Source: Heliocidaris erythrogramma
Lineage: Eukaryota > Echinodermata > Echinoidea > Camarodonta > Echinometridae
Direction of reading: 5' to 3'
Assembly: GCA_025617745.1 (NCBI GenBank)
Contig: CM046866.1
Coordinates: 15,817,725-15,881,724 of the forward strand
DNA: 64,000 nucleotides
The position numbers and the translations under genes are program-made. Positions 6,318 to 54,400 of the stretch are shown piece by piece. Each line of letters opens with the position of its first letter. Positions within the stretch are counted from its first letter, which is position 1. A model generated the notes under the pieces. It did not search any database and was not told the DNA's origin. It was given only the letters and a program-made list of their open reading frames with translations.

Positions 6318-6388
6318 CGTTCGAAATTAGGAGACCACCATCCATTAATACTTTCAAATCAAAACTAAACACACATCTTTTCATTTAA
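6318..6388 (+). mobile_element. 3' end of a non-LTR retrotransposon ORF (fragment)
   Basis: The plus strand encodes LPFEIRRPPSINTFK followed by SKLNTHLF. This matches the typical C-terminal end of CR1/Jockey-type reverse transcriptase ORFs (a NxLP-xxIR-xxxS-xxTFKxxLKTHLF pattern). The fragment stops where the TTAA-flanked MITE begins, so the MITE probably inserted into it. No upstream RT domain is intact. Confidence 0.5.
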
Positions 6389-6982
6389 AGGGCAATCCAA
6401 CCTTGGTAATAAGTTGATTTGTGTGAAAGCAGAAACAATAAGAAAAACAGGATGGTGATAGTTTGAAAGAAATCGGACAAGGAATAAGAAAGTTATGGAT
6501 GTTTGAAAAATGAGATCACTACATCTATACGAATCTCAAATTGGCAATTTGGTGAGTCGATTGTGACATACTTGTGGACAACTCTCCCATTTGTCGTACA
6601 CAAATTTATCATTAATTTGCGGTTTTCTCCGAAGCGCCTTTACCCTCGGGGCAGTATACTCAAAATATATTGGAGATAGCATATTGTTATAGGTCCTCAT
6701 GAAAGAAAGAGAGCCTACTGAGTAATACATTTTGAAACAATGACATTTTAGTCATTTTGTGTGTTGGAGCAAAAGGGAGAGTTTTCCACAACTACATGTA
6801 CATCACAGTGACATTATACCTATTCGGCCAATTTGAAATTCCCATATGGATAGTAATTACAACTTTCAAAAAATCATAACTTGCTTATTGCTTGTCCGAT
6901 TTTGTTCAAACTTTCACCAATCTGCTTCTCTGATTTTTCCTCTTTCTTTCAGAGCAACTTGCCATTAATGTTGGATTTTCCT
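6389..6982. mobile_element. TTAA-flanked non-autonomous DNA transposon, family A copy 1
   Basis: The element starts AGGGCAATCCAACCTT, and its other end, read inverted, is AGGAAAATCCAACAT. TTAA flanks it on both sides (6385-6388 and 6983-6986). Copy 2 of the same family lies in reverse orientation at 51283-51872. No coding capacity. A TTAA duplication points to the piggyBac or Kolobok superfamilies; the autonomous partner is not in the window. Confidence 0.85.
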
Positions 6983-7270
6983 TTAAGTGTTCATAGTAAT
7001 TTTAAGCACATTAGAAGATCTTGCAACGCAGTAGAATATTTTGGATAGTTTCTGCGGTTCATGAATTTATCTCATTATTATTGAAATGATTAGATTTGAA
7101 TTAAATTGAATTAAACTAAATTGAATTTGATGATATAATATTTTTATACTATTTTATTTCGAATCAATTTCGTGCCCCCACTTGATCTTCCCACTATTTA
7201 AGAAGTGTATAACAATAATATTACCCGAACCCCCCCCCCCCGCCCCCTATACACAAATACCTAAACTTAC

Positions 7271-19294: not shown

Positions 19295-19300
19295 ATTACT
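19295..19300. repeat. Target-site duplication, left (ATTACT)
   Basis: ATTACT directly precedes the element terminus TACAGAAGCG. The identical ATTACT directly follows the other terminus at 33988-33993. Confidence 0.85.
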
Positions 19301-20076
19301 TACAGAAGCGTTAAAGTGCCATTCGACTTGACGACATGTCGAGATATTTTATCTCGACAAGTCGACTTAATATCCATATTTTGTCGACTTGTAAAGATAT
19401 TTATCTAACCATGTCGACTTAATAACTTTTATAAGTCGACATGGCGATATAAATTATCTTGCCAAGTCGACTTAACAAAACAAATTATGTCGTCATGGCG
19501 ACACTATTATCTTGACAAGTCGACTTAACAAAAATGCATGTCGTCATGGCGAGATATATTATCTTGACAAGTGGACTTCCCAAAAATTATAAGTCGACAT
19601 GGCGACATAAATTATCTTACCAAGTCGACTTAACAAAAAAATTATGTCGTCATGGCGAGATATATTATCTTGCCAAGTCGACTTCCCAAAAATTATAAGT
19701 CGACATGGCGACATAAATTATCTTACCAAGTCGACTTTACAAAAAAATTATGTCGTCATGGCGAGATATATTATCTTGCCAAGTCGACTTCCCAAAAATT
19801 ATAAGTCAACATGGCGACATAAATTATCTTACCAAGTCGACTTAACCCAAAAATTATGTCGTCATGGCGAGATATATTATCTTGCCAAGTCGACTTCCCA
19901 AAAATTATAAGTCAACATGGCGACATAAATTATCTTACCAAGTCAACTTAACCCAAAAATTATGTCGTCATGGCGAGATATATTATCTTGCCAAGTCGAC
20001 TTCCCAAAAATTATAAGTCGACATGGCGACATAAATTAACTTACCAAGTCGACTTATAAAAAAAATTATGTCGTGA
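19301..20076 (+). repeat. Left terminal inverted repeat, array of a palindromic unit of about 106 bp
   Basis: After about 170 bp of unique terminal sequence comes a tandem array. AAGTC(G/A)ACATGGCGACAT recurs near 19591, 19697, 19803, 19909 and 20015, an exact 106-bp period. Each unit has two halves of about 41 bp. One is bounded by AAGTCGAC...GTCGACTT; the other starts ATGTCGTCATGGCGAGA and ends CCAAGTCGACTT. A/T-rich spacers separate them. The ORF through the array is a by-product of the repeat. Confidence 0.9.
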
Positions 20077-20096
20077 TCTTTTTTTTTTTTGTCTAC

Positions 20097-20102
20097 CACG
20101 TG
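20097..20102. promoter_or_regulatory. CACGTG E-box between left TIR and RING gene
   Basis: A palindromic CACGTG inside CCACGTGG, 128 bp upstream of the RING gene ATG. A CACGTG also lies between the right repeat and the transposase gene start (33248-33253). The regulatory role is inferred. Confidence 0.35.
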
Positions 20103-20229
20103 GATACATGCATGCACTTAATGTGTAGAAAGAGTGGCAGATGCGACGATCTTGGAAGTTAAAAAGCCTACAAAGCCCACAGTACAGACTCTAACTTTGT
20201 TACAGACTACACCAGTAGATCTACCAATC

Positions 20230-22974
20230 ATGGCGTCTGACATTAGTGACACTGACACTAGTGAACTTGTTGCGGTACTCTTCAAGTACCAGACCCATGC
20301 AAAAAAGAAATTTATATCCAAAGGGGCAACAAAGGCTACACTTGTAGCCAGCTGTGAAGAGGTACGTAATGCCGCAATCTGAGTCATATATCTCGACCTA
20401 GTTAAGTTAGATCTACTTTTAACGTTAGCTGTTAGATAGGGCCTAGCTAAATTTTAGACTTAAAAAAAAATTAAAGTAACATCTAAGTTAGTCTAGGACC
20501 TCTAACATAACGAGTTCGTTAGGTTATAGGGCTGGACTAGACTGATAGGCGATAGGATCTGCCTGCGCCTAGGCCCTAGGCCTAGCCTCGGGGGTAAGCT
20601 TCTCATTTATGATAGACTATTGACATTATATATTAGGGCGCTAACGTATGTGCTTTCGCACCGGTCCAGACTAGACCGAATATTCTCTAACTCTTACTCT
20701 TACTCTTAGGCCTATTTCGCTAGCCTCTTAAATGGCGAGTTTTTTCTTTCAAAAAGGGACAAGAACCATCACAAATTAGTCCAAATGGAATATCATCGCC
20801 ATTATTTACGATTCAGGTGAGGTAAAATGCCTATTTTTAGGGTTAGATTAGCTCGTGAATAATCCTTGCTGCAATTCACTCTCGACTCAGCAGGAATTGG
20901 AGGAGCTCTTCCCCTGCACCAGCGGCCTAGATTAATTACGGGTAATGTGGTGGGTCTATTGCGTGCACACCGCTATCCATATTCATGACGGGATTCTTAA
21001 TTGTGTGTGTGTGTGTTTTTTTTTTCTGCTCTTTTAACTTCATCTTTTTTTTTTCAGTTTGACTGTGGTTGATTGATATGATCAGGGAATTTCTGCAATG
21101 TCATGGAATGAAGATTTATATCTAATTAGGCTGTTAAATGTTTGCTTTAAAGTTTAAGTTTGGCCTTGGCTTTGCTGCTGACTGGGAACGAAGAATTGAT
21201 GTGAACTCATTTTTTTTTTATATTGTGGACACTAAATCAATGTCCAATGATTATTATATTTCTCTCTATAATTTTTATCATGAATATAGCCCCATCTCTC
21301 TTCCTTCCTTCTCTCTCTGCTCTAGACCCTACATCCCTTTGTCACTTGTGTGTTTTCTTCTTGGGGAGCCTAATTAAATGTGATCTAATTAAATAATTGT
21401 CAGTATTAATTACAAAGCACAAATATTCATGATGATCTTGATCTGGATGTGTAGCCTACGATGCAGGGCCCTGCTGGGCATAAACACAGAGAGTGTGTGT
21501 GTGTGTGTGTGGGGGGGGGGGGTGCTTACATACTTAGAAGGCTCTAATGATGGCCTTCTGAAATGTGTTTGTTGACGGTGAGTTTAAGACATCGTCACTC
21601 ATCAAGGGGTTCCACTCGATGGGAAATGGGAAATGGACCTACTAGTATGAGTTCCAGTATAATTGTTCTGTTTGTACTCTGATGGGGCTGTAACAGTTAG
21701 CACTTGCTGTTGTTTATCACTTGTCTAGTCCTTCTCTAGCTATTTTTAATATTAGGCTGTAACTACATGTAAGTGTAACCAAGTTTTGTACTATAAGTGT
21801 TGAAAAATTGAGAGTCAATAGAGGTCGTTAGATCTATGGGCCATGTATGATGGCTTCATGGACTACTCAAAAAGTAACGTTACACCAATGCTAGCTATGG
21901 TCTTAAGAAAATTGAGTGGAAGTAAGGCTTATAATCTCTGCATATTTGTTCGGCAGATTGAATTTTTTTCTGATTTGCAAAATGAGATAAACTTAATAAC
22001 TAATCTTTTCTTTACTCATTTCAGTTATTCCCTGAGGCACAGTCCAGCTACTTCCTCCAAGTCTTCGATGAGGAGTTTGACGAGTGGGTGGATTTGTGTG
22101 ACACGTACACTGTGAGCAAGAAGACAGTCATTCAAGTAATGGATGAAACGAAAGGTAAGAACATTAAAAGATATCCACCCATTCTAATCTGATGGAATGC
22201 ACGTTTACATAATTATGAGGCATTAGAAATATTACTGCACCAGCAGAGAGATCAGCCTGGAGATGAACTGCGTAATACAGTGGGTATACAAGCTCGACAC
22301 CCACGAGTCCTATAGCCCACGAGTTCACATTAGGCAAATAAGGCCCATGAGCTGGACACTGTTAGTTAGGCGGCCCACAAGCTCGACACTAGGCAAATAT
22401 GGCCCATGAGCTCGATGCTACGTCGATTAGGCCCACGTATTTGCCTATTGACGAACTCGTGGGCCTACATGTATTTTATTTAGTGTCTAGCTCTTGGGCT
22501 GTATGACTTGTGGGGCCTTTTGCAATGTCTAGCTCATGGGCCATATGGTGTTGAGCTCGTGGGATGACCTCATGGGTACCTTTCACCAATTTGAAACCGT
22601 TCAGTTGTCATTTTGGAAAAATACTCAGGCTCGGTCTTTTTACTTGCAGTATTCTATCTTGAAGATGCATTTAATTCTTAGATTGAGCAATAAGGTAAAA
22701 GATTTTGTTGTGAACTGAATTGTTGTAATGGTATCAATCCGAATATTCATTATTTCTTCCCCTTCTTCCATCACCATCTCTGCAGGTTCTCTTCAAGTCC
22801 GGGCCTCAGCCTCAAGGAACATGTGGCATATGCTGCGACCGTCCAAAGGAGAGCTTTTTCATTCCGTGCGGGCATACACTGTGCCTTCCTTGCAGTACAT
22901 ACATCGAAGAATCTACGAATAAATGCCCATTTTGCAAACAAGATATCACTGCTGTCCACAGCTTGTTTATCTGA
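20230..22974 (+). CDS. RING-finger (C3HC4) protein carried by the transposon, three exons
   Basis: Exons 20230-20361, 22025-22135 and 22786-22974, all phase 0, give a 143-aa protein. The ATG at 20230 (CCAATCATGG) opens MASDISDTDTSELVAVLFK. Residues about 12-80 alternate strand-like and helical segments (ending YFLQVFDEEFDEWVDL), which I infer to be a ubiquitin-like/PB1-like beta-grasp fold. Residues 94-131 form a complete C3HC4 RING with zinc ligands C94, C97, C109, H111, C114, C117, C128 and C131 (CGIC...PCGHTLCLPC...CPFC), followed by a short tail. RING proteins of this kind usually act as E3 ubiquitin ligases. Splice sites are GAG|GTACGT, CAA|GTAATG (less usual; the GTAAGA 19 bp downstream breaks the RING frame) and a textbook acceptor at 22785. 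The gene sits just inside the left TIR. It may be a transposon accessory gene or a captured host gene. Confidence 0.75.
22265..22565. repeat. Palindromic GGCCCA(C/T)GAGCTCGA minisatellite in RING intron 2
   Basis: Several imperfect copies of a unit with GCCCACGAG(C/T)TC, CGACACTAGGCAAATA and GGCCCATGAGCTCGA run forward up to about 22430. The same words then run inverted (TATTTGCCTA, GAACTCGTGGGCC, CTAGCTCATGGGCC, GAGCTCGTGGG). The whole is an imperfect cruciform-prone repeat. Confidence 0.65.
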
Positions 22975-24033
22975 AACTATGCTGCTTAATAGTTTCCACT
23001 TTTATGTTCTTTTAGTCAAATCAACATTTTGCCTTTTCTCCTCCACAGGGAAGTGAAGATGAAATCATATGTAAAGGCATAATTATAGTTCACAGTTTTT
23101 GTGTCGTTACAATCAGAAAAAAATGACTTAAGTTAATTAAATTAAGATTTAACAAATAACATCCCGGAAAAAATAATATTCTCAACTTTTTTCCATGATT
23201 GAGATTCATAACTATTGTTCTTCCTTCCTGAGGAATTTTACCAATAGGTCAAGTTATTTATCTGTTTGAGGTTGTTTACTGCCATTGACTTATGTTTTTT
23301 TGGCAGTGTATTGGATAGGTACCTAAAAAATGTATCTCTGTGCAGTCCCACAATGATGCTTTAGATTTTAGCTTTCTGTTTAATGGTTCTAGTGAACATT
23401 TATGATCATGATATAGATGCATCTGGCACTTGATCCTGCTCCCAGTGTCAGTAAATGCTGATGTTAGTGGGCAATGGTAATGTAAAGCACATTCGACAGA
23501 CCTTTTTTTTAAGATCTAAGATGGCTGCCATATATTATGGAAATTTGAAAATATCTACAGCAGCATTGAGGTTAATATATTATACATTATGCTCTGTAAA
23601 ACAAAAGTAGTGTTCTTGGAGGCAGAGATTCATTTTGTACTATCGTTTGACTTCGTAGCTGTCATCATGTTAGTAGAAGTTGTGGAACCAACATTAGAAA
23701 AAGATGTTAAAAGTTGTTTTACTTCCACTTGTTTCAACCATGTTTTAAAGTGTTTTAACATTAAAAATGAAGAGTTTATTCCCATTATGTTTGATATGCC
23801 TTCATCCAGCAGATAAGTAATTGGGTAAATCTGAAAATAGCTCTTTAAAAAAAAGCACCCAACTTTTCAAGTTATCCAAGTAAAGTGAGTAAACTTGGTA
23901 TATTTACATAGAACAGATTTGTTTCATATATCAATAGGTAATCCCATTTTTACAATCAGACATTGCAAAATGTATAGTTCTCTCTGTATGAATGCCTCAC
24001 AACTTTGTGATGGCGAAATCAAGGATTTCTTTG

Positions 24034-24040
<7 letters not shown>

Positions 24041-24069
<29 letters not shown>

Positions 24070-24870
24070 ATTGCGACCGCTATTTGTCCGTCGTCCCGTA
24101 AACTTTTTACATTTTCATCTTCTTCTCAAAAACGCATGATCGGATTTTAACCAAACTTGGTGTGAATCATCCTTAGGAGTAGGGGATCCAAAGTTGCTAA
24201 AATGGTACCTGTGGCCCCCAGGGGGAGGGCCCCAAATGGTAAAAACTATGTAAATTTCAAACATCTTCTTCTACAGATCAAGAAGTAGCACAGTCTTGGT
24301 ATTGTGTTTGTATATACCTCTATATATGAAGAATAAAAGTTGTTCATGACATATCTCTGGGTGGCCCCATAGGGGCTCTGTAGGGGATATCGTGCTGGAG
24401 GGGGCACTACCAGGGGAAATATGCATTTTATTGTTATCCTTCAAAAGGCATGATCAGATTTTAATTGTACTTAATCATAAAATACTTAAAATCATCCTTA
24501 GGAGCAGCTAGGCGATCCAAAGTTGCTAAAACGGTACGTGTTGTCCAACGGGGGGCCCAGGGGGAGGGCCCCCAATGGTAAAAATGGTGTAAATTTCAAA
24601 CATCTTCTTTCCAGATCCAGAAGTAGCACAGTCTTTGTATTTTGTTTATAGATTTACCTCTATATATGGAGAATGAAAATTGTCCATGGTACATGTGGTC
24701 CCCAGGGGGGCCCAATGGGAGGGCCTAAAATGGTAAAAACTCTGTAAATTTCAAACATCTTCTGCTACAGATCCAGAAATAGCACAGTCTTGGTATTTTG
24801 TTTGTAGATGCGACAGATCAGAATTGATCGACCTCAGGTGAGCGTCGTGCCCCCGGGGGCTCTTGTTTAC
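24041..24870 (+). mobile_element. Non-autonomous interspersed repeat with TCACCTGAGC...GGTGAGCG ends
   Basis: Begins CTCACCTGAGCCGAAGGCTC and ends with CAGGTGAGCGTCGTGCCCCC followed by GGGGGCTCTTGTTT. This end pair is widespread in marine invertebrate genomes (from memory, in molluscs and echinoderms). The interior holds about three imperfect tandem units carrying GATCCAAAGTTGCTAAAA, GTAAATTTCAAACATCTTCT and AGAAGTAGCACAGTCTT. No coding capacity. Confidence 0.7.
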
Positions 24871-27597
24871 ATTGTGAATCTGAAGCCGAAATTTGGTCCG
24901 ATTTATTATGAAAGTCTAAGATATTTTATTTGCTGTTTTTAAGTTCAAAGTACTTGAACAAGTGAGTTTCATTGTTATGAAGACCGAAAACAAAAAAAAA
25001 ATCGCAAATTTTTTGCTAGTTTAAAATTCTTTCGTGAATCTTTCATGAGACAATTTCAGTAAAGTTCCCAAGTCTAATTTCAAATCTAATCAAAATGTTT
25101 CATTTTTTTATAATCATGAGGTGTGCTGACTTTGCCAAAATGATGTATCTACTAATTCTACTTCAATTTTTTTTTGTCATTTATTCTCTAAGATGTTAAT
25201 TCGGGTACTTGGATTTATTGTATTGTTTGTTATTACTTATTTTCCTGTTGTGAGGTTTTGTTTATTTCTGGGTTTTTGTTGTTGTTTTTGTTATAGTCAA
25301 CACATATGCTGTTCATCTTGCCAACACTCCTGTCATTCATGTCAAATCAGGTTCATGTAGTAAGTTCAAATAGGTGGATGTTAATGTTTCTACAGTGTAA
25401 ATACACTTCCTCCAGTTGTGATCTTATAGGTCCTTATGTCAAACTGTTGTTTCATACGTAGATATCTAATTGTTAAGGAGAATATTACCAACAAACTTGT
25501 TTAATTTTTCAGATAAATGCCTTTTGAGTCTATTTGTCTTATTGTTTGAAATCTAATACACTGTACTAGGGTTGCAGACTTAAAAAGAAAATACTTTACA
25601 CAAGAATGAGAATGAGACCCTGGGGAATAATCAACGTTGAGAGAAGAAAGAAAGAAAAAAAAAAGGAAAGAAAGGGGGAAGACCCCCCACCCCACAGCTC
25701 TCCCGGTCCACCACAACTGATCCCGATGGAAACCCCCCCCCCCCCCCCCCCGAACCACCACCACCAAAGCTGATTCCTCCCCAGGGCCTCATTTCCTCAA
25801 GTGAATCCCAATTAAGTGGTTGAAAGTTAAGGAGAAGAAAGATAGCACAAAAAGAAGGAAATGAGAGAAGGGGTGAGAGAGAAAGAAAGGGAGGAGGAGA
25901 GAAAAGGAGCTCGGGAGAAGGGGAGTAACTTTCAAGCACAATGAAAAAAAACCCCAATACAAATATAAAGTACTCTCAATTAACATAATTGGAACTAAGC
26001 ACACAGTGATAGGATCAAAGAAGGAAGAGGAAAGGGGAAAGAGGGGGAAAATAATACTTTCTGTACAGTGTGAGAGTACACAAAACTAAATAAATTTGCA
26101 TGTATTATTGCAGTGAAACCCAGATACAAGTAATGATAACGTGAAAGGAGTGGAATCTTAAACAAGTTTCAAAGTAGTTTTCATCTCCATTGCCTGTGGT
26201 ATGAAGCAATTTTGTTATCTGGTATGGAGGTATTTGGTATCTGGAAGTACTGTATGTCAAAGTAAAAGCACCTCTCAAATTTTAGTAGTCCTTGTGTAAT
26301 TATCAAAAGCAGTAAAAAATTTTGTAACAGGCACCTATTATTTAAAGGAAAGTAGGGGTGGCAATTAATAAGGGGAACTTCCTCAGGTGAAAAGGGCACA
26401 CTCCTGCCTCTCCCCTCCCCCCCCCCCCAAAAAAAAAAAAACGAAAAATAGCTAGACGTGACTTCACGGAGACGAATACAGTGATCCGCAGCATCCGACA
26501 GCGATCTTATGATGATGATCATCATCTTCTTAATTGGGGAATCCTTGATCATGACTGTATATTTAGAAAATTGCGTGTTGGTATAAAACTCAATCCATGA
26601 CCCGAGCCGTTTGAAAGGAAAATTTCACCTTTAAATTTACATTTAAATTTACATTTAATTTCCCATTACCATAATCAAGATTGGGTTGTATGATTTGATC
26701 GTCTCCTGAATGAAAAAAAAAATGGTTGTCAAATTTGCGAAAGAACAATAATATTAAAAATCATATTCAACTTTGGGAGCAAATTGAGCGAGGACAACCG
26801 AGATACAACCAAAAGAACATTGTCAAGACACAAATTAAAAGGAATTGACCTTCCATAGCCATAACACGTAAAACGAAAATTTCTGAGATGTAGCCTTTAA
26901 TCGTATTTTTTAACTATGATCCCGTCATTTAATTGAAAAAAATGGTTGGCACTCTTACGACAGAAAATCGTCTCAGCTTACAACATACTGAAATTGGGGA
27001 GAAAATCGACCACGAATTACCGAGATAGACTAAAAGAATGTGCAAACAGTGACGTCATAGATGCACGAATGGCGAGTTTCGGTAGGTTTTTCAAATGGAA
27101 AGGGGGATTGTATTTTTCTCGCTTTATGTTACACAAGTCTTTTCCGTGAGGTCGGGAAATGTAATTACTGGGGTTGGCATGAACTCTTTTTGCAATATCA
27201 CGAAATATTATTCATGTTTAGTATCTTTGCATGGCTACTTTAAGGTCCCATGTGTTTTGTTTGTTTGTTTCTAATCCAAACCTGATTAAGTTAAGCTCAA
27301 AGTGGTTCTGATGATGATTGGCCTATTTTCTCAAGGAGAATTATTTTCTTTCCAATGATAAGGCCTAACAAAAGTATCAATTATATAAACCATGTTGCAT
27401 GATGGGCATTATGCTTTTCCGTTTTGTTTTTGTGTTTTTTATACTAATTTTACAAATTTGACCAATAATGCAACGTGTATAAACAAGAAGAATTCAGAAT
27501 TATTAACACTCGAATTGTATATAGGTAGCTAACTCCAGGGAGCTCCCCCGCGAAGCTCCCTTGAGTTAATAGGTAGCTAGATTAGCAAATACCTTAA

Positions 27598-28480
27598 AGG
27601 AGAATTAACCTCAAACAATAAAGACGATAGTGTTGAAAGGTGTTATTTATTCCTACTTGTTAGACTATATGGCTTCGCGTCAAAATATACGAGATCGATA
27701 CGAATCAAGATTTTCTGAGCAAAATTTATCATCTGCTAGCAGCCCCCATTTTCATGGGGGCTGCCATTTTTTTATGTGTACAAGAAGATTTTCTTAATCC
27801 AAATGCCCAATTGCCTTTTTCAAAATTAAAAACCCATTTGAGATTAAAAATATAGAATAGATATGTCAATTTATTTTTAAACTGAAGATTTCCTTATATA
27901 TTTCTGTTGAAAATCGATATTCGCTTAATATAAATCTATTTTCTAGATACTGTGACGCAATGGACGGAGCAAATTAATTCAAATTTTATGGATGCTTCTT
28001 CCCTGAGCATCTATAGCAGCAAACTATGCATTCACCTGCTTTCGGATAATGGGACTTGAAAAGTCAGAATGCATGCTGCATACTGCTCTGTTTGGCAAAC
28101 CCAAGAAAATAGATTTTTGTTAAGCAAAACCAGACAATTTAAAAGTATCATTATAAAGATTTAATTTTTATAAATCATGTAAACACCCACTTTATATTTT
28201 TCGTCACATATGGGATTTTAGGTAATGAAGAAAAGCAATTTAGGTCTTGGATTCAAAATATCTTCCTGACCGGAACATTTCTCAATGGTTCATGTACAAA
28301 TCCAAATCAGCAAGAAAATGGCAACCCCCATGTAAATGAGTAGGAGACGATACCGGGTGTTGGAATATCTTTATTTATACCCTTTTCTGATATCTTATTA
28401 GAAAATGATTTAGGCCAATAAGTAGGAATATATTACACCTTTCAATATAAGTAAATTTGTACTCAGGGGTTAATTCTCCT
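27598..28480. mobile_element. TTAA-flanked MITE, family B copy 1
   Basis: TTAA then AGGAGAATTAACCTC at the left; GGGGTTAATTCTCCT then TTAA at the right. It contains CTGCTAGCAGCCCCCATT and GGGGGCTGCCATT segments shared with copy 2 (28763-29405). Nested inside the large transposon. Confidence 0.8.
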
Positions 28481-28762
28481 TTAAGAAAAACAAAACGGCT
28501 TAATACAAAGGCCTAACGTTTTGAGTGAACACTTGGAAACTAAAAAAAAAAACACTTTTCTCCAGAGGGCAATCATTCGAAAGTTCTTGTATAATTTACG
28601 TATCAATCTTCATTCTGAATGATATAATCTCGTTACATAAAGTGGCAATATCACGGTCATATTGCCACTTTATAACAAAAAGTTTATAACAAATAAAGAA
28701 CAAGCTTACTGTAAAATCAGATGATATTTATTTCGATATAATATTATTATGTTGATATTTAA

Positions 28763-29405
28763 AGGGAAATTAACCTCAGCGTATGAATTAGCTTATTTTG
28801 AATGGTGTAGTATATGCCTCTTATTTGATACATGCAATGTATCAAAACACAGGATATAGATATAAATCACTATTTTCCAGCCAAGTTATCGTCTGCTAGC
28901 AATAATAAGGGGGCTGCCATTACTTTATGTGTACACGAACATATTTTTCATCCCAAGTAAAATTTCCTTCATCGTTAACTTGTAATTGATTTTTAGAGGA
29001 CAAATATATATTAGATAAAGTCACATATTCTGAAATGTAAGTTTAGTTTTATATATTTTTTAAAAGGTCTTAATTTGTTCATAAAAAATATACTTCATAA
29101 AAAATATACGTCAAGGACGGAGAATTGACGTCAAGGACGGAGACAATCCTAACAATACCAAAACAAAGCGAGGAATCTGCTTTACAGGATGGCTATTAGA
29201 ACTCATGGGTCGTCAATTATCTAGGCCCATGGCCAATAACAATCGTAATACAATCAGAACAAAGCGACGTATCTGTTGTAAAGGTAGGCTATTATCAATG
29301 CATATGGTACCTAATGATCCGTGTCATGCACAAAATGGCAGCCTCCATGGAAAGACGTAGCAGACAATAGGTGCATCTAGAATATCACGTGGGGTTACTT
29401 GTCCT
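28763..29405. mobile_element. TTAA-flanked MITE, family B copy 2 (diverged)
   Basis: TTAA plus AGGGAAATTAACCTC at the left and GGGGTTACTTGTCCT plus TTAA at the right. It shares CGTCTGCTAGCAATAATAAG and GGGGGCTGCCATTACTTTAT with copy 1 but is shorter and more diverged. Confidence 0.75.
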
Positions 29406-29622
29406 TTAATCACCCTTCTGGATATGTATGTAATACTCAAAATCAACACAAGTCGACTCGTCCACATTCAGTAAGGTGGAACATCGTAAATTATTGAGGA
29501 ACTAAACATATTGACAGTTTTTCAAAATCAGGCTGAAGTCTCTGATCTCAAGTTCTCAACCATGCCAAATTTCTCTACTATTGTGAATTTAATATACGTT
29601 CTTAATAGAAAGCAACAGCATT

Positions 29623-32600
29623 TTAATCAAAAATGTCGATCAGACAAAGTAGCATTTGTGTGGCTTCTTCGGGGGAATTTGGCATCGCAAAGTGATCCAC
29701 ATTGTTTCCAATGAGTTCCGAAAGTCCACCAGCTAAGGCTGGGGAGCATCCATACTTGGGAGGCTCATCGCAATAGATGCGTTTTACCTCCTCAATATTG
29801 TCATCAGAAAATCGCAACGGAAATTTATAGTCCCTTGATCCGTATACTTCTGGTAGGAAATAGAGTACGTCGGGTTTTCCACTTGGGCATTCAAGGTTTC
29901 TTTGACTGCGAATTCGATGTTGATTCCACATTTCGGCTGCACGAGTGAAGTCTCTCTGAATTAAGTCAGTAAAACAGAATCTAATACATTCAATGTGAAC
30001 GTCGTTAGATGTATCCACTAATCCACTGTCCCGAAGGTCTTTCATATAATTGACCCAAAAGCGAGAACAAAGGTTTTGGAAGTATGACCAAAAGGCCTCA
30101 ATACGCTGATTTGCCACGGATCTGCCATACAAGAAACTTCTTTCGCCGCTCATTTCATCACGGTCGTTGAATCTTAACGCTGTTTGAATGACTCTAAGCA
30201 CAGAGTTCTCTGTTCCCCTATCAGCACGGATGACTCTCGGTACTCCGTTAATTTTCTGCACGTACTCCAAAAAGAATTGCGCTACGTATCTGGGATTTTT
30301 ATTGCTGCGACCCACTTTCATCCACAAAAGTCTTCTGGAGAATCCATCTATTGCAGCATGGACTGATACCCCGTAAGGTTTTAATTTGTCCCATCCGTCG
30401 ACATGAATCAAGTAATTCGGACCTTTATTGGAGTATTGGCGACGTCGAAATGCTCTGACAGATCTCGCATCCACTCTTTCAGGCTCTAAAACTCGAAGAA
30501 TTATTCTCACAGTTTCTTGTGATACGTGTAAGTGGTAACGTGTGGTTAACACCCGCCACATAAAACGGTAACCCATCGAACCACCTGAAGCATTCATAAC
30601 ACGTTGTACAGCATCAACCACATCTTCTAACGGTGACTGCTCCCGACGTCGAAGTCTCAACCGTCTCAAAACACGCCGTAATTGACGAAGACTTATTATT
30701 ATACTATGCCTTAAATACAAAAACCCGATGATTTCTGCTGCAATGTATCCATCCTGGAAATAATGTTCTATTAACTCGTCTCTGGTAAATACAGCGGCAT
30801 GTCGTCCCAGTTCAGCTGCAGTATACAATGCTGGAGCGGATACACATGGAATTGAGATGGTCAAGAACACAAGTACCTAAAAAGTGGGAGAAAGAAAGGC
30901 AGACACTGAGAAAGGGAAAGCGAATAATTATTAGTGTGACATAATTTTTCATTATAATATTCCCCCAAATCCTGAAAAAAGCATGTGTTTTATAATTATA
31001 TTGTAATTAATTGATATATGTCAAGCAAGCAAATAGTCCGCATTGTCCATATATAATAATGCTTTTCAACCATGGGGGCACAGCCGGGGGGGGGGGGGGC
31101 AATATATATTTTTTAGTAGGATGGCGAGGGAATGGCTGCGTGCCATGGAAGGGTTAGGGTTAGGGCTAGGGTTGGGGTTATACTATAGGGTTAGGTAGGG
31201 ATCAAAGTTCCATGTGTGTTGTCTATTTCGAAGTCATCATCCTATACTCGATCTTCCATCCTACTAAAAATAATTCACCGCCGGGGGGGGGGGGGGGTGG
31301 TTATGTCTCAGTGGTGCCTGTACATCATCCGCGTACAATCACTTTCTGAAAAGCACCCTATAAACGGGGATTAAAGTAGGAGTAGTTTTAATACACTGAA
31401 CATAAAAACATGTTACTATCTCTGATTTTCATACCCCTAACAAAAATTTTAGCCAAGGATTGCCTCTGAATTTGATACCCTTACCGAGATACGCGGGTTC
31501 TCTGCCTGGCGCTGAAAAAAAAAATACAATTTTCCCCGTTTTCGTGTACGTGGATCATGTGCAGGCCTCAATGACAATAAGAATGAGACATGTACATGTG
31601 CTTAAAATAACACAAATTCCCACTTTAACGCCTCCCAAAATATACTTCTATGTATACTTTAAAGCATAGAAAGCAACAGGCCTGTTCATAGACCGTCAAC
31701 GCCAAAATATTGAATATTAAAGGACCTATGCAATGCATATGCATATTGACTTGTGTTGATTTATAATAACCTGATCATCACTCTAATGTGGCCAAAAGAA
31801 TATATAAATACGTGCCATATATTTCATAATAATCTTTCTGCCATTTTTCGTCAGAATGCTTGGAAACGCCCATAAAAATCTCCCAAACCAAGATTCTGTC
31901 AGTGACATCATCTGTCAATCACTGCTTACTTACTAATGCAATTGACAAAAGACACTGGAATGCGCCTTCCCCAAAGATGGGCATCCTTCTACAATAGCGT
32001 TGCATGCTTGTACATAACACCAACCCAAATACTTTCGCTAGGAAAGTTCTAATACATGGACAACAATGGAAAGGCACCAAGTGGTCATGGTATGGAAACC
32101 ATGCAAGTTATGTTCAGTTTAGGGGAAGGTGCATTCCAGTACTTTTGCCAATTGCATTGGCAATTAAGCAGTGATGGCAGTGGTTGACAGATGATGTCAC
32201 TGACAGAATCTTGGTTTGGGAGCTTTTTTGTGGGCGTTTCCAAGCATTGTGAAGAAAAATGGCAGAAAACTTATTATAAAATATAAGGCACGTACAGTGG
32301 CGGATCTAGCCGGGTATCATACAATACCATTTCGGGGGCACAATTGTTTGTGCACAATGGTGTGCCCCTCCAATGTATTGTGTCTAATCTGGCTAGATCC
32401 GCCAGTGACGTACATGCATTTAGATATTCTTTTGGCCACATAAGTGATGATCGGGGTATTATGAATCAACACAAGTCAATATGCATAAGCATTGCATAGG
32501 TCCTTTAATTTTTTGAATGACCCAAGACCTATTTTGTACGCTTTGGCCTCAATCTAACCAACGCGGCCACCGTGACGGGTACCTCACTGGCACTGTGCGA

Positions 32601-33210
32601 CCCCTTTCAGATACCCGCCACGGTGGCCGTTGTTCCACTGCAGAATACTTTTACGATTGTCGAATGTTTTCAATCCACATTGCTGTTATTAAAAGACCAA
32701 GGTCCTCAATTTGTGCTGTAACTTTGTGGAGTTGTAAAGGTTTTTTTTTATATAAATAGATGCACCAATAGACAACATTTTACATGCAGTAGGCTACTTT
32801 AATAGCACATACTAAGAAAATAGAAATCGATGACCTCAGTCTATATTTAGCCTTTCGGTGCCCATTGAAATAATGGCAAGCATGCATGTGACCAATTATG
32901 CCAAAGTTTCAACTAATTACTGTATATTACTGTTTACTAATTTCTAACTTTCTAGTGTTCAATGGTAATCGAATAATCCCTAAACCTGTTAGTATCACTA
33001 GAAATTTGATTCTAAAGATGGGTTTATTCTAGACCCACGCGGCCACTTCCAAACAAAATCCGAGTAACCGACAAACCCCCTGCCCCCCGACCCATAAATC
33101 ACAACTTTCTAAAATCACTGTTTCAAAGAGGATATTGTTTTAGCATTAAAAAATGTACAAAATTTTAAATAATTTCTTACCCAGAGAACGAAGACTAAAT
33201 CCATGACCAT
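29623..33210 (-). CDS. DDE integrase-core transposase of the large transposon, two exons
   Basis: Exon 1 is 33210-33181 (10 codons, donor TGG|GTAAGA); exon 2 is 30876-29623 (417 codons plus stop, acceptor CCACTTTTTAG); phase 0; 427 aa. The catalytic core resembles retroviral/IS3-type integrases: IHVDG (D170), VIRADRGTEN (D229) and SVANQRIEAFW (E270), a D-58-D-40-E spacing. AAIDGFSRRLLW after the first Asp is also typical. Residues about 42-90 are predicted helical and very basic (RRVLRRLRLRRR), probably a helix-turn-helix DNA-binding region. This is the integrase-core family found in many copies in fish, cnidarian and echinoderm genomes. The reading frame is intact, so the element could be active. 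Oddity: the spliced N-terminus (MVMDLVFVLW joined to VLVFLTISIPCVSA) looks like a signal peptide, so the true start may lie downstream. The gene begins only about 75 bp inside the right TIR. The 2.3-kb intron contains a MITE. Confidence 0.8.
31080..31300. mobile_element. Small foldback element with poly-G ends and telomere-like core
   Basis: The left arm ends TTTTTAGTAGGATGG (31109-31123) and the right arm has CCATCCTACTAAAAA (31256-31270). Both are bordered by poly-G runs, and GGGTTAGGGTTAGGGCTAGG lies between them. Confidence 0.5.
31721..32504. mobile_element. TTAA-flanked foldback MITE, family C, with long arms
   Basis: TTAA then AGGACCTATGCAATGCATAT at the left; the right end is GCATTGCATAGGTCCT then TTAA. 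The arms pair over several hundred bases: TTGACTTGTGTTGATTT, GGAAACGCCCA, AGATTCTGTCAGTGACATCA and CAATTGACAAAAG all recur inverted on the right. A 113-bp element is inserted in the right arm. Confidence 0.85.
32295..32407. mobile_element. 113-bp MITE nested in family C MITE
   Basis: Termini CAGTGGCGGATCTAGCC and, inverted, CACTGGCGGATCTAGCC, flanked by the direct repeat ACGTA (32290-32294, 32408-32412). The GGCGGATC terminus is shared with the fragment near 38172. Confidence 0.75.
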
Positions 33211-33247
33211 GATGACTGCACTTGACTGTAATTCTTAACGCCGACTC

Positions 33248-33253
33248 CACGTG
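33248..33253. promoter_or_regulatory. CACGTG E-box between right TIR and transposase start
   Basis: CACGTG about 40 bp upstream of the transposase exon 1 ATG. It mirrors the E-box at the left end (20097-20102). Functional meaning is inferred. Confidence 0.35.
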
Positions 33254-33283
33254 ATCGTATTTGTGTAGTCAGTGATATATTTG

Positions 33284-33987
33284 TAGAAGTCGACTTGGCA
33301 AGATAATATATCTCGCCATGACGACTTGTATTTTTGTTAAGTCGACTTGGTAAGATAATTTATGTCGCCATGTCGACTTATAATTTTTGGGAAGGCGACT
33401 TGGCAAGATAATATATCTCGCCATGACGACATAATTGTTTTGTTAAGTCGACTTGGTAAGATAATTTATGTCGCCATGTTGACTTACAATTTTTGGGAAG
33501 TCGACTTGGCAAGATAATATATCTCGCCATGACGACATAGTTTTTTTGTTAAGTCGACTTGCTAAGATAATTTATGTTGCCATGTTGACTTATAATTTTT
33601 GGGAAGTCGACTTGGCAAGATAATATATCTCGCCATGACGACATGTATTTTTGTTAAGTCGACTTGGTAAGATAATTTATGTCGCCATGTCGACTTATAA
33701 TTTTTGGGAAGTCGACTTGGCAAGATAATATATCTCGCCATGACGACATAATTTTTTTGTTAAGTCGACTTAGTAAGATAATTTATGTCGCCATGTCGAC
33801 TTATAATTTTTGGGAAGTTGACTTGGCAAGATAATTTATATCGCCATGTCGACTTATGAAAGTTATTAAGTCGACATGGTTAGATAAATATCTTTACAAG
33901 TCGACAAAATATGGATATTAAGTCGACTTGTCGAGATAAAATATCTCGACAAGTCGTCAAGTCGAATGGCACTTTAACGCTTCCGTA
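33284..33987 (-). repeat. Right terminal inverted repeat, array of a palindromic unit of about 106 bp
   Basis: The reverse complement of the left array. It has the same alternating half units (CAAGATAATATATCTCGCCA and GTAAGATAATTTATGTCGCC) with GTCGAC palindromes, ending in a unique terminal segment whose last bases are CACTTTAACGCTTCCGTA. It has slightly fewer units than the left side. Confidence 0.9.
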
Positions 33988-33993
33988 ATTACT
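33988..33993. repeat. Target-site duplication, right (ATTACT)
   Basis: Identical to 19295-19300 and directly abuts the right terminus of the large transposon. Confidence 0.85.
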
Positions 33994-48445: not shown

Positions 48446-51400
48446 AGGTTAGGAGAGGAGAGAATGCACAGAAATACACAGGAAAATGACTTGGCAAAGA
48501 CAAATTCCTTAATATAAATATGGTTTATGAGAAACAAGCATTAGTCCTCATAACGATCTCTGCTACAAAAACTGTTCATGGTCAAATTCAGGAAGAGCCT
48601 GAAATAAGCACACAGGTAATAGAGGAAGACCTAGATGAACAGGGTCTGACTGAGAAATTTCCTGTTGCTCAATGACCACCCACCCCTGACGCTCCCCATT
48701 TTAAACAATCCAAATTCTTTTGAAATCCAATATCCTCTTGTTTCTACGCAGCAAACTAATTGGTCGTGGCAGTCAGCAGGTAACTCAATAGCTGCTGAAA
48801 TTACAACAGGAAAAGACAAGAAAGGAATTTCATCAGATATGGATAACGGAAATGCACATTTTCTTGTTAAAAGATAAATGTAGCATGATGGATGATAAAG
48901 TATATATTCATACCAGGTGTTTAAACGTAGGCTGTTATTCAACTATTAAAGAAAACGGAATGACTCAAAAAAAAAAAGTCAGAAGTTTAATTGACAGCCA
49001 GACAATCCCTAAAAAGTAAAAGATCGAGTGGAAAAAAATTGTGAAAGGATAGATAATTACGATACATTTCACACCACTTTCTCCATCAAACAAGTGAAGG
49101 CAAATGTTTCAAACACACTTAATTACAATAAATTTGCTGGAAACTTTCCAATATATTTTCTTAAAGATACATGCATACTTTAGCCACATGAATAATACCA
49201 TTCTAGTTTCTGTCTTTTTAGACTACTGTCAAACCTGTAATAAAAGGGAAACTGAAAAAGGTGGTCCCAGTAGATCGAAAAGTGGCGTTCCTAGGATTAC
49301 TGTACAAAATAGTGCGAAAGGATGCACTAGGAAGAAATATATTTCTCTCTAGTGGGAGACAAAATAAGTGGTCACTATAGACAGATGGTCTTTATATAGA
49401 GGTGATCATGATTATAGATTTTGTTTTTTTTCCCCCACAGTAGGGCGTTTTATTGAGTAATAAACTTGCAACGTTGTCTACATACATACATGTATGGTAC
49501 ATAAACATCTATTGAGTATTATTATAGATTTGACTGTAAACAGAATAGAAAGGGTTAACCATAGCAGTAGTGTCTCCTTTTATTGACGTTATTGCATTAT
49601 CTATTGATCCAGCATGCTAGGAATTACACAATATATAGACAGAAAGAGTCTATTTTCCAATGTTAAACATTATGCTGTTCACAAATTAGAGCAATTTCAT
49701 TGTAACTAATCATTAGTGTCTCTAAATTGGCAATGCGGTGTAAAATGTATAATCAATACTTTCATGTACAAATTTGTTTGCTAAATTTTGCAATTTTCAT
49801 TCACATTGGTTCAATAAAAAAACATCTTTCTTTTTTCAAGCAATGTAGGAGTTGAAAATGAGAATATTGGTTGCCAATCTAAGGAGGGAAAACTGATTAA
49901 AGGAGTTTGTCCAAGCTTTGCGATTGTTCTGAAATTACGGCGTCTGGGTTTGCGTCCGGGTTCATCGAGTATAATATAGTTGATTTCAAGTAATTTGTTA
50001 TATACCTGCGTGATAACCTGATGAGTGCAGGTCGAAAAGCTTCGTTATCATGTCTCTTTTTCGTGCCATATTGATTAATCTATACCATAACAAAACTTTG
50101 TACCGCTGTGGGTTACCCGGTAAAAAAAAAAAATCATGGAAAATATTAGCAAACTTGACATGTCCTGTTCAAGCTGTATGCATCCTCTTTATTCAATTTC
50201 CTCATGCCAATAAACTTGAGACATCCTATATACATCATTAAAACAAGAAGCATCGGTATGCCAACAACCACAAGACACCACAAGAAGTATCAAGTTTTGG
50301 GTTTTCTTGATACTCTGTCTTGCTGCCTCATCATCAGTATTCACATGAAAAATAATAAAGATCAAGCACATTTTCATGTGAGCTACGTCAGTAAAACGTG
50401 GCAATCCTCAGAGAAAATCTGGTTTTCTGGCATGATAATGGCACGACATTCCACTCGAGGGATTTGTGTATTTGAAACACAACAGATGAGTAACTTTGAC
50501 TCACCTGTCAATCAGAACCCATGTCTCTTGGTTGGATTTTCAGGTAATGGTAACATTGCATGTTCAGGCAAAGCAGCATGAAACCTCAATGAGAGTGAAA
50601 CACGATCGAAAAGACTTTCACAAAATCAACCCGAGGCAATTACAAGAGTCCATCACCTTTTGAAATGTGCGAACATGACAATGACGTATTACATATCTGA
50701 ACATGATTTCTACAGGCTACCAGTATATGGTATAAATATTGCCCCTGAATTGATTTCTGGAAAGTCTTTGTGAGCAAATTGTGAGAATTATGAATATTCC
50801 AGTCAAAGATGGAAACTCTTGCATTTTTTTTATCACAAAAGCTTTTCTGGATGTGATTTCAAAATTCATGAGGCAATAATAATGAACGTCAAGAAACAAT
50901 TCAGTACTTGCTTTCTCATATAAGATATTGAAAGTCCATTTGCTTCATTAAATTAATCATAATATTAACTTAGCGATGACTTCTCATATTTACTACTAGG
51001 CCCTCATGGCACTTGTGTATTACCATGGCTTTATAGATGGGTGTGTTTCCATTGCTCACAGCATGTAAGGAATTCCTTCCAACAAAGAAATACCAGAGAC
51101 AGGTCAAGAGAGACAACTGGGGATAAAACGGCTTGTCCAAAGACATAATTATAGCGCCTAGCAAAGATATGAACTCTTATCCTCTTGATTGAGAGTCAAG
51201 TGAACGAACCACTAATCCACTATACCACGGCATCACAACAAAATATATGCAACTGTGTCTGTATTCCTACCAAGTCTTTTAAAGGGAAATCCAACCTTAA
51301 TAGTAAGTTGCTTTGAAAGAACGAGGAAAAATCAGAGTAGCAGATTGGTGAAAGTTTGAACGAAATCAGACAAGCAATAAGAAAGTTATGAATTTTTGAA

Positions 51401-54400
51401 AGTTGTAATCACTATAATCACAACATATGGGAATTTAAATTGGCCAAATAGGTAATGTCACTGTGATGTAGTTGTGGACAACTCCCCCATTTGCTCCAAC
51501 ACACAAAATGACTAAAATGTTACTTTTTTCAAAATGTATTACTCTGTAAGATCTTTTTCTTTCATGAGGACCTATAACAATATGCTATCTCCAATATATT
51601 TTGAGTACTGCCCCGAGGGTAAAAGCGCCTCAAAGAAAACCGCAAATTAATGATATTTTTGTGTACGACAAACAGGAGAGTTGTCCACAAAAATGTCACA
51701 ATCTACTCACCAAATTGCCAATTTGAGATTCGCTTAGATGTAGTGATCTCATTTTTCAAACATCCATAACTTTCTTAGTCCATGTCCGATTTCTTTCAAA
51801 CTTTTACCATCCTGTTTTTCTTATTTTTCTGCTTTCACACAAATCATCTTATTACCAAGGTTGGATAGCCCTTTAATCGTCCGACAAGGAAGATGGGATC
51901 ATAATGAAACACATAGACCTTGATTAGCGTTCACTCTACATGAATGTGAACCCACCCCGTCAAGCTTGAGTGGTACGCACAGGTTCTTTGAATTATGTTG
52001 TCACTAGCTGCATCCCTATCTTTATTTGGAAGGCACTGGCCCGTAGCTTCCAGCATCCTTCCTTCTTAACCCTCACGAGACCGAGCTTTAGCTGGCAGAG
52101 GGCAAGATCCATGTAGATCTTGGCACGGTTGATGTCAGAAGCGTTAAGCGCCACTTGGATGGCAGGAGGTGATCGCATCAGATAATGTTGGAGTCGATCA
52201 TTTAGAGAAAGCTTGGAGAAGATTATACTTGTTTCTCTTGACCTTCAATGTAGTATCAATTGACGAGCAGGCAGTGTGAAAGGCTTTTTTTGTGCTAATA
52301 AATAATAAATTCTTCTTCATATATGAAAATACTTCTCTTTGATCACCCATCCTTATCAACAAAACTGCCTCAGATGTAGATATATGTGTAGAAATTATAG
52401 AATGGTCAATAACTGAATTCTATTTTATGAATTTTGATGGAATCTACTTAAAATATATCAATTGTTGCTATCTGGGGCAAGTCTCAGACTTGCTTTCTGA
52501 TAGTAAAAAGAAAAAAAAAAACTTTTGTTTACAGAGTATGAATTAAAAAAAAAATACATAGTAATTGGTAGACTGATGCAGATACTTCACACATGTACAA
52601 TTTTGCAAACTCATGAAAGACAATCTCTGTTAAAATCATGCAAAACATTCTTTGATATACCTATCTTTGCGAGAAACGTGTTTACAAATCAACACATGTG
52701 TATAAAATGTATTAGAATCTCTTCATAGATTTTAGATCAATGATTATCCTTTTTTCACATGTCTAGATAGTGAACCATCATAGATTAATGCATTCAAAGA
52801 TTAAAAAAGACATTTCCTACTTTCAGGATTAATCTAATCCCTAACCAACTCCTCAGACCCTAAAGCCAAAATGTAATTGACCTTCATCTGTCCATGGTCA
52901 GGACAGCGTCAAAACTTGTTAAACATGATGCGCTGCCAAAAGGTTAGAAGCTAGAAATGGCTTGGTCAGTCGGCTCTGATTAACACAAGATAATGTTCTC
53001 CTTAATTTCCATTTTCCATCCTGTCTAATAGCTAACATCATAACAAATTATCCTTTATTTCAACATTTCCTACATGTAATCAGGCACAGGGGCATGGCTT
53101 AACGAGTATCTCCTCTATTCTCAAATAAAACAAATTACTGATTGCTTTATTAAAGAGGGACATGCCATCAAATTTTACAAATTTGCAGGTCACTGTGAAA
53201 TTCAGAAGTTTATTTGCCCTGATGGGACAATGTTAGCATCAAGCCCTGCCATGAGGAATAAATTTCTCACTCTGATCTTAGATAATGTTCTCTTTAATTT
53301 CCATTTTTTGCCCCTAGCAGGTAGCTAATATCATTTCACAAATTACCCTGTATTTTAACCTTTCCTACAGGTTAGAAAACACAGGTTAGAAAACACAGGG
53401 GATACGTCTCCTAAACTCTATAAAAATCACTGAAAACTTGAAGTTATACTAATAACCTGTAGCCTAAAAATATCAGGGGTCATTGTGAAAATATGAATGT
53501 TATTTGTCCTTGGATACAACTTGGTGTCAAGAGGAATAAAATTCCTCACTGTGATCTCTGATAATGTTCTTCTTAATTTCCATTCTTCCATCCTGGCAGG
53601 TAGCTAAAATCACAACAAATTATCCTTTATTTCAACCTTTCCTATGGGTTAGTGCACACAGGGGGAAGCTTGACATATATCTCCTGTAATTCATATTCAA
53701 TCTGGTGATCCTTCTTAATCTACATCAACCATTTTGAAGACGTGCTTTCACAGGGACATCTAGAAGTGATTAAATCAAGGAACTTGGCTGAAATTAGTTT
53801 GACTTTTACCTAAAATCATGAAAAATGAAACAAACGGTAGGCTTCTAAAGTTGGTACATCTACGGTGAAACAGAAGAAACCAGTTATTGTTTATTGTAAC
53901 TGTCTATAAAAATTATATTTAATACCTGTTGTATGAAATGCTTCACATGTTTATTGGCAGCCTACTGATAAAAGCAGATACAAGTATATCATGACAAGCT
54001 ATTCTGGGAATCCTTATACACGTTCTCAAGGTTTCTCAGGTTTCTATTCCTTTGCAGTTGTTTAGTCATTGTTCCTGAGTAAAATGATCTTTTTTCCTTC
54101 TTGTTCCAGCCTATTACAGGATGACACTGCACTTTTTAATCAGGCGTCACCACTCTTGATCATGAACAAATGTTTCACCAGGTAACACTGGGTGTTATCT
54201 GCATGAGATATCACAGTTACTGCACTTTGCTTGGGAGCGGTTTGGATCAGGGATACAGCGCCCTGAGGTGAGAACTGTTTCAAACAATCCCGGAGCCACC
54301 GTGGCTGAGGGAATACCCTGCTTGTGGTGGAGAGCGAGAGCGAGGTGTATAGGGTAGGAAGGTTGGGGGATTACCCTCCGCAGCACGCATCGACAACACC

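Follow-up and report, generated by a model that had tools for sequence, protein, structure and literature searches.

IS3EU transposons have TA..TA ends, produce 6-bp target duplications, and encode an integrase-type transposase that is related to IS3 and IS481 and lacks an HHCC motif (Kojima and Bao 2023, PMC10045372). The IS481EU elements of parabasalids are given duplications of ~4, ~15, or ~25 bp (PMC10045372). Styx, an element of Zymoseptoria fungi, has ~52% of its copies at 7927 bp with four open reading frames (ORFs) (PMC10853768), and IS3EU families of rusts carry alpha-kinase and TET/JBP genes (PMC12730594). Some satellite repeats of oysters have been labelled IS3EU (PMC8268682). I analyzed a 64,000-nucleotide stretch of the genome of the sea urchin Heliocidaris erythrogramma (hereafter the window; C14:15817725-15881724) and found that positions 19301-33987 are one element with TAC...GTA ends. 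Very probably, this element belongs to a young cut-and-paste DNA transposon family of the IS3EU/GingerRoot kind, of which it is one copy.

The ends of the element and the duplications beside them are as follows.
19295..19300, unstranded: left 6-bp target duplication, ATTACT, read in the sequence.
19301..20077, plus strand: left terminal inverted repeat, consisting of the 20-bp end and tandem 53-bp units (106-bp higher order), each an imperfect palindrome of ~41 bp.
33286..33987, minus strand: right terminal inverted repeat, with an array of 53-bp units as at the left.
33988..33993, unstranded: right 6-bp target duplication, ATTACT, read in the sequence.
The left end starts at 19301 with TACAGAAGCGTTAAAGTGCC, and its inverted partner, mismatched at 1 of 20 positions, ends at 33987. 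No further match to the 20-bp end was found within the window when up to 5 mismatches were allowed. Over their outermost 150 bp, the ends agree at 147 of 150 positions (the preliminary description of this locus had called the outer repeats nearly identical), and the inverted similarity continues for ~704 bp at 93.9%. The element has inverted ends of ~700-780 bp composed of 53-bp palindromic units; both the 53-bp and the 106-bp unit were detected at either end by Tandem Repeats Finder. The 13 best left-end windows reach 15-17 pairs in 20 positions (14 just below); in 50 base shuffles, the count does not exceed 14 and averages 12.6. Folding as single-stranded DNA gave z-scores of -6.7 and -5.4 for two left-end windows, -2.7 for one right-end window, and -0.8 and -1.0 for two interior controls. 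The transposase, or else a host factor, would probably bind these palindromic arrays at multiple sites.

The whole genome (1.064 Gb) was searched for other copies, which are named here by contig label (C1, C2, and so on; W is the window copy). The exact 20-bp end occurs 192 times (88 and 104 on the two strands), its reversed control pattern 0 times, and a 35-base extension of the end 56 and 62 times. From the 100 places listed for each end search, 39 facing pairs were drawn: 26 from the 20-bp search and 13 of the 15 new ones from the 35-base search, leaving aside C18:14691747 and C19:3136755. An exact 6-bp duplication flanks 26 of the 39 pairs; the others have 7, 9, 13, or 2 bp (one pair each) or none (nine pairs). 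Among draws with reshuffled flanks, 0.026% show a duplication of at least 5 bp. Among the pairs longer than 10 kb, the exact 6 bp was found in 11 of 15, and C10 (C10:44010195-44025289) has the 13-bp duplication. Paralogous empty sites with a single copy of the duplicated sequence were seen for three insertions.

Eleven large copies, including the window copy, were compared end to end. Deletions and inserts aside, an interior is common to all of them, and 6 of the 10 other copies carry their own, different exact 6-bp duplications. The shared interior refutes the idea that two separate small foldback elements flank ordinary host DNA and that the 14.7-kb unit is accidental, and the separate duplications speak against it as well. 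In its support, short facing pairs (0.3-4 kb) that end in the same way are numerous, and the twelve that were read whole (315-1690 bp) can all be aligned, partly or mostly, to the end arrays; the idea now deserves practically no credence. A 2.57-kb copy has ~807 bp of the right-end type at both sides. The copy at C11:12049206 has a transposase match of 79% (its left end was inspected over 300 bp), and copies on C12 and C13 and a second C19 copy are known from their ends or from search matches. Eight exact ends of the family are clustered within 23 kb at C3:17599157-17622215, which suggests nested or local insertion. Substitution divergence between the eleven copies averages 0.26% (range 0.11-0.49%, 55 pairs), computed on four shared segments of ~10 kb; a fifth segment, in which C3 aligns badly, was dropped. 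The similarity of the two ends of one copy is a poor clock, and the youth of the family rests on the divergence between copies. As far as sequence can date it, the family is very young because the interiors of the other large copies diverge by just 0.1-0.5%. Thus, the preliminary description was right to read the locus as a single, recent DNA transposon with inverted ends and an ATTACT duplication: ends, duplications, and shared interiors all agree. It had named a failure of other end copies to share the interior as grounds for refutation, and the genome search found the opposite in ten other large copies. The family is recent and, from its sequence, possibly active.

The transposase gene reads inward from the right end.
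29626..30876, minus strand: main exon of the transposase, with 417 codons behind a splice-acceptor sequence; it matches PF24764 at E 1.1e-31.
The frame is open in the window copy. In addition to PF24764, a Pfam scan of this exon found HTH_21 at residues 86-129 (E 6.5e-7). NCBIfam profiles gave IS481 at 8.4e-8 and IS3 at 1.1e-6, both far below the curated cut-offs. Three acidic residues, D160, D219, and E260, are invariant among 41 aligned sequences, along with 25 other positions, and would form the catalytic triad, judging from motif and predicted fold. The AlphaFold model (predicted local distance difference test score, pLDDT, 86.3) finds its best structural matches in TnsB-type and IstA transposases and in retroviral integrases over residues ~145-364; families absent from the match list are not treated as excluded. 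Among the 100 of 249 genomic candidates that were scored, at least 17 loci match the transposase at 79% or more, 10 of them with the 417-codon frame open, and further matches are at 28-49%. The first exon of the transposase was not located. A search of viral contigs gave one stretch fitting the pattern and no confirmed relative, and a sequence search of PDB gave no relative up to E 1.

These data agree with the IS3EU/GingerRoot kind in four respects: the TAC...GTA termini, which are of the TA..TA type; the usual 6-bp duplication; a DDE transposase with the IS3/IS481-related integrase fold, as shown by PF24764 and the core; and the lack of an HHCC motif upstream of the core, as Pfam found no zinc domain in the 417-residue exon. 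The integrase-type DDE enzyme and the nearness to IS3EU, both proposed in the preliminary description, were upheld. Could the element instead be a Maverick/Polinton-like or virus-derived giant? Mavericks/Polintons make 6-bp duplications and carry genes for an integrase, a family B polymerase, a capsid, an ATPase, and a protease. A retroviral-integrase fold, a size of 14-28 kb, and 6-bp duplications would all suit such an origin. However, an integrase, a helix-turn-helix domain, a RING, and the reverse transcriptase of a nested insert were the domains seen in the scanned ORFs, where a polymerase, capsid, ATPase, or protease did not turn up; the scan covered the transposase and RING pieces, six window ORFs, and two insert ORFs, from lists of ORFs of at least 70 amino acids in the window copy and of 50 or 120 in the inserts. 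On the ORFs scanned, this origin is very improbable, and the IS3EU/GingerRoot assignment is retained.

The preliminary description called the window copy complete, which does not hold. Comparison with the other copies revealed two scars.
22701..22716, unstranded: 16-bp scar GATTTTGTTGTGAACT, marking the absence of 5.4-8.2 kb that five sister copies have and in which exons 3 and 4 of the RING gene lie (copy comparison).
27071..27072, unstranded: scar (GG), from which ~2.25 kb present in six of the ten other copies is absent (copy comparison).
The shorter large copies are the window copy, C1, C2, C3, C7b, and C10 (13.7-16.4 kb), and the long ones are C4, C7a, C9, C11a, and C19 (23.5-28.0 kb). 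All five long copies have the extra 5.4-8.2 kb at window position 22716. The ~2.25 kb at 27072 is kept in C1, C3, C4, C7a, C9, and C19; it is absent from W, C2, C7b, and C10, and C11a has 113 bp of the piece. In the long copies, the 5.4-8.2-kb piece is bordered by near-identical 16-bp direct repeats. The scar comes in two variants among the short copies: T in W, C2, C7b, and C10 (all also without the 2.25 kb) and G in C1 and C3 (both retaining it). On the simplest reading of the sequences, the stretch between the 16-bp repeats was apparently lost on at least two occasions.

Direct repeats of this kind would also flank the piece if the 14.7-kb form were original and the piece a later insertion with a 16-bp target duplication, and C3, which lacks one nested TTAA repeat, also lacks the piece. 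However, the two 16-bp repeats differ at a single position in four of the five long copies, either base being found among the short copies, and the piece holds RING exons in the order in which they are joined in relatives from other animals. An original 14.7-kb form is thus quite improbable. I take the long form to be the older one because the extra stretch holds RING exons matching those relatives; on this sequence comparison, the parent would be ~23.5 kb long and the window copy a derived, shortened form, missing two inner stretches and carrying an added insert of 642 bp.

Several observations weigh against the reading of a single family with 6-bp duplications, an older long form, and repeated loss. 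Ten of the 39 facing pairs have no duplication of 5 bp or more, and one pair has 13 bp. C4, C7a, and C3:17602713 are among the large pairs without a duplication of 5 bp or more, so that, with C10, 4 of 15 large pairs lack the exact 6 bp. Some of the pairs without duplication may be abutting ends that were mispaired. At its left end, the 24.5-kb C19 copy (from about 25924071) is without the outermost TAC. Exchange between copies could also give the appearance of two losses, and C19 has T in both of its 16-bp repeats. In addition, the 8 intact transposase frames differ by 6 replacement changes and 1 silent change, and purifying selection is not demonstrable from them. As a separate observation, the C19 copy without the left TAC has imperfectly similar flanks of ~27-32 bp, which, like the duplication of C10, recalls the longer duplications of IS481EU.

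The RING gene reads inward from the left end.
20230..20361, plus strand: exon 1 (model), with the start codon and the N-terminal region, of ubiquitin-like/CIDE-N type as judged from relatives only.
22025..22154, plus strand: exon 2 (model).
22786..22974, plus strand: last exon, with a C3HC4 RING (PF13920, E 6.6e-13 for the ORF holding the exon).
Exons 3 and 4 are missing from the window copy, where exon 2 ends in phase 1 (at the better donor site) and the last exon begins in phase 0. The window RING gene is thus truncated, as the two middle exons lie in the lost stretch. The preliminary description held both genes to be intact; this is true of the transposase frame (417 codons) and not of the RING gene, and the transposase alone is open in the window copy. 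Exons 1, 2, and the last exon are present in all 11 large copies read. Of the long copies, C9 and C19 have an open exon 3, and in C11a, C4, and C7a its frame is shifted; exon 4 is present in C11a, C4, C7a, and C19 and was not found in C9. The phases and the relative P0121 (described below) imply one more small exon between exons 3 and 4, which was not found.

Five relatives (P0121-P0125) were found for the model that includes the middle exons: P0121 from Diadema antillarum (47% over 79%), P0122 from Argopecten irradians, P0123 from Ruditapes philippinarum (CIDE-N and RING), P0124 (CIDE-N and a partial RING), and P0125 from Fundulus heteroclitus (the middle domain only). A model joining exon 2 straight to the last exon was also tried, and no relative was found for it. 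AGTPTV spans the junction of exon 4 and the RING in P0122, P0123, and P0124. The Pfam match to CIDE-N was obtained for P0123 and P0124 and not for the first exons of the element itself; the predicted structure of P0123 (mean pLDDT 44.5) is too poor for use. The RING protein would probably serve as a ubiquitin ligase, with host or element proteins as its targets. An intact RING gene would not be needed in cis because copies without the middle exons have spread.

Is the RING gene a host gene captured by chance and useless to the element? Copies with a truncated RING gene have multiplied, and four other RING-exon matches of 44-48%, plus weaker ones, lie elsewhere in the genome, both of which speak for capture. 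On the other side, exons 1, 2, and the last one are present in all 11 large copies read, and a diverged relative of the element at C16:17700691 has RING exon 1 (63% match) beside a similar end array. Because of this arrangement in a diverged relative, the association seems to be old, and the gene seems, on sequence, to be an old companion of the element. Chance capture is unlikely, without being far-fetched.

Part of the length of the element is due to nested repeats.
27597..28481, unstranded: nested stretch of ~0.9 kb bounded by TTAA, absent from copy C3.
28763..29404, unstranded: 642-bp insert with TTTAA duplicated at its ends, which the window copy alone has at that place among the 11 copies.
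31713..32512, unstranded: nested inverted-repeat (foldback) stretch with inverted arms of ~95 bp and ~178 bp.
The first is either a nested TTAA-type insertion or was precisely lost in C3. A 637-bp insert at a TTAA site in C7a is 95% similar to the 642-bp insert, and both are TTAA-targeting short elements. C4 and C11a have eight substitutions in common, as well as a 6.1-kb insert that encodes a reverse transcriptase (RVT_1, 1.7e-21). This insert was labelled DIRS-like from the appearance of its ORFs, its recombinase ORF having no Pfam match, and it sits at window positions ~32027-32030, inside the foldback stretch. C4 has no duplication. C11a is 27,953 bp long, and because it has an exact CTTATG duplication, a 28-kb unit can apparently move, as far as sequence tells. 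Outside the element, the window has two inverted copies of a 600-bp repeat of another family (6385-6986 and 51279-51876; 90% identity).

How might the family move and decay? The transposase would pair both ends, excise the element, and join it to a target with a 6-bp stagger. Copy number would rise through gap repair from the sister chromatid or the homologue, and gap repair interrupted at short direct repeats could leave internal deletions. The transposase may work in trans on the deleted copies and on the short copies of 0.3-4 kb. The near-identical copies of this young family let large size (14-28 kb), short derivatives, and the traces of internal deletion and nested insertion be read off directly. 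This makes it possible to test how cut-and-paste elements of such size go on moving and how they decay.

The N-terminus of the transposase has an unexplained feature that is easily tested. In the window gene, a hydrophobic stretch, VLVFLTISIPCVSA (30835-30876, minus strand), starts directly after the acceptor; it is modelled with low confidence. I sampled 120 relatives (P0001-P0120, listed out of 503 found), measuring the N-terminus from an anchor motif present in 114 of the 120; 52 are predicted to be too short for a leader. A crude signal-peptide rule, self-made and not a trained predictor, was passed by 58 of the 62 testable relatives (33 of 36 without near-duplicates) and by 54 of 6000 internal stretches (0.9%). 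By a simpler hydropathy measure, 15 of 41 are too short and 23 of 26 have a leader. The leader is hydrophobic, ends in small-x-small, and is then often followed by VLP. In many relatives, including the named-source proteins P0105 and P0110, a methionine stands directly before it in an unbroken frame. Against a leader, some passes (e.g., P0008, P0015, P0058) rest on upstream stretches that are possibly intron, and the annotated proteins P0021, P0070, and P0112 have none. A leader-like N-terminus is unexpected for a nuclear enzyme. A speculative and rather doubtful proposal is that the transposases of this lineage carry a real secretory signal peptide, by which they would enter or anchor to the membrane of the endoplasmic reticulum or nuclear envelope; this might serve to control timing or dosage, the enzyme being set free at envelope breakdown. 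If true, the signal peptide, the ubiquitin-like/RING partner, and the palindromic arrays would make a regulated giant transposon system. Such a design is not known for any DDE transposon.

In the open-access literature searched, no report was found of IS3EU in a sea urchin, of giant transposons with passenger genes, or of IS3EU-type features joined with a RING gene or a leader. The preliminary description did not recognise the combination as that of a described element. IS3EU elements with several genes are, for their part, known from fungi (PMC10853768, PMC12730594). What appears new against those sources is the size of the element, its palindromic satellite-like ends, and the RING companion gene. 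It ties an IS3EU-type transposon to palindromic arrays of satellite character, from which satellite DNA might arise, and to a gene of ubiquitin-ligase type. Long inverted ends with internal tandem repeats, as found here, are the mark of foldback elements; one of these, Galileo, reportedly uses a P-type transposase. Tetris of Drosophila virilis resembles the present element in such ends and in its rearranged forms (PMC4079207). In contrast, Tetris is apparently non-autonomous with units of ~220 bp (PMC4079207), whereas the present element has a 53-bp palindrome and a transposase-bearing parent. IS481EU has a transposase of a related group and longer duplications (PMC10045372), which one 13-bp copy recalls; its duplication lengths were not seen here, where 6 bp prevails in 26 of 39 pairs. 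Styx shares coding sequence with IS3EU and is alike in its 6-bp duplications, extra genes, and length variants, but has 36-bp terminal repeats and GATA, CCHC, and DUF3577 genes instead of a RING gene (PMC10853768). The rust TET/JBP families are alike in their 6-bp duplications, in their termini (TAYGG..CCRTA), in their extra genes, and in the opposite orientation of the transposase and alpha-kinase genes. They differ in that the extra genes encode a dioxygenase and a kinase, and neither "tandem repeat" nor "RING" occurs in the text (PMC12730594). The closest likeness is to IS3EU/GingerRoot as described by Kojima and Bao (PMC10045372): the termini, the 6-bp duplications, and the transposase type are the same, whereas the present element differs in its parent of ~23.5 kb, which reaches up to 28 kb with nested inserts, and in its palindromic satellite-like ends and RING companion gene.

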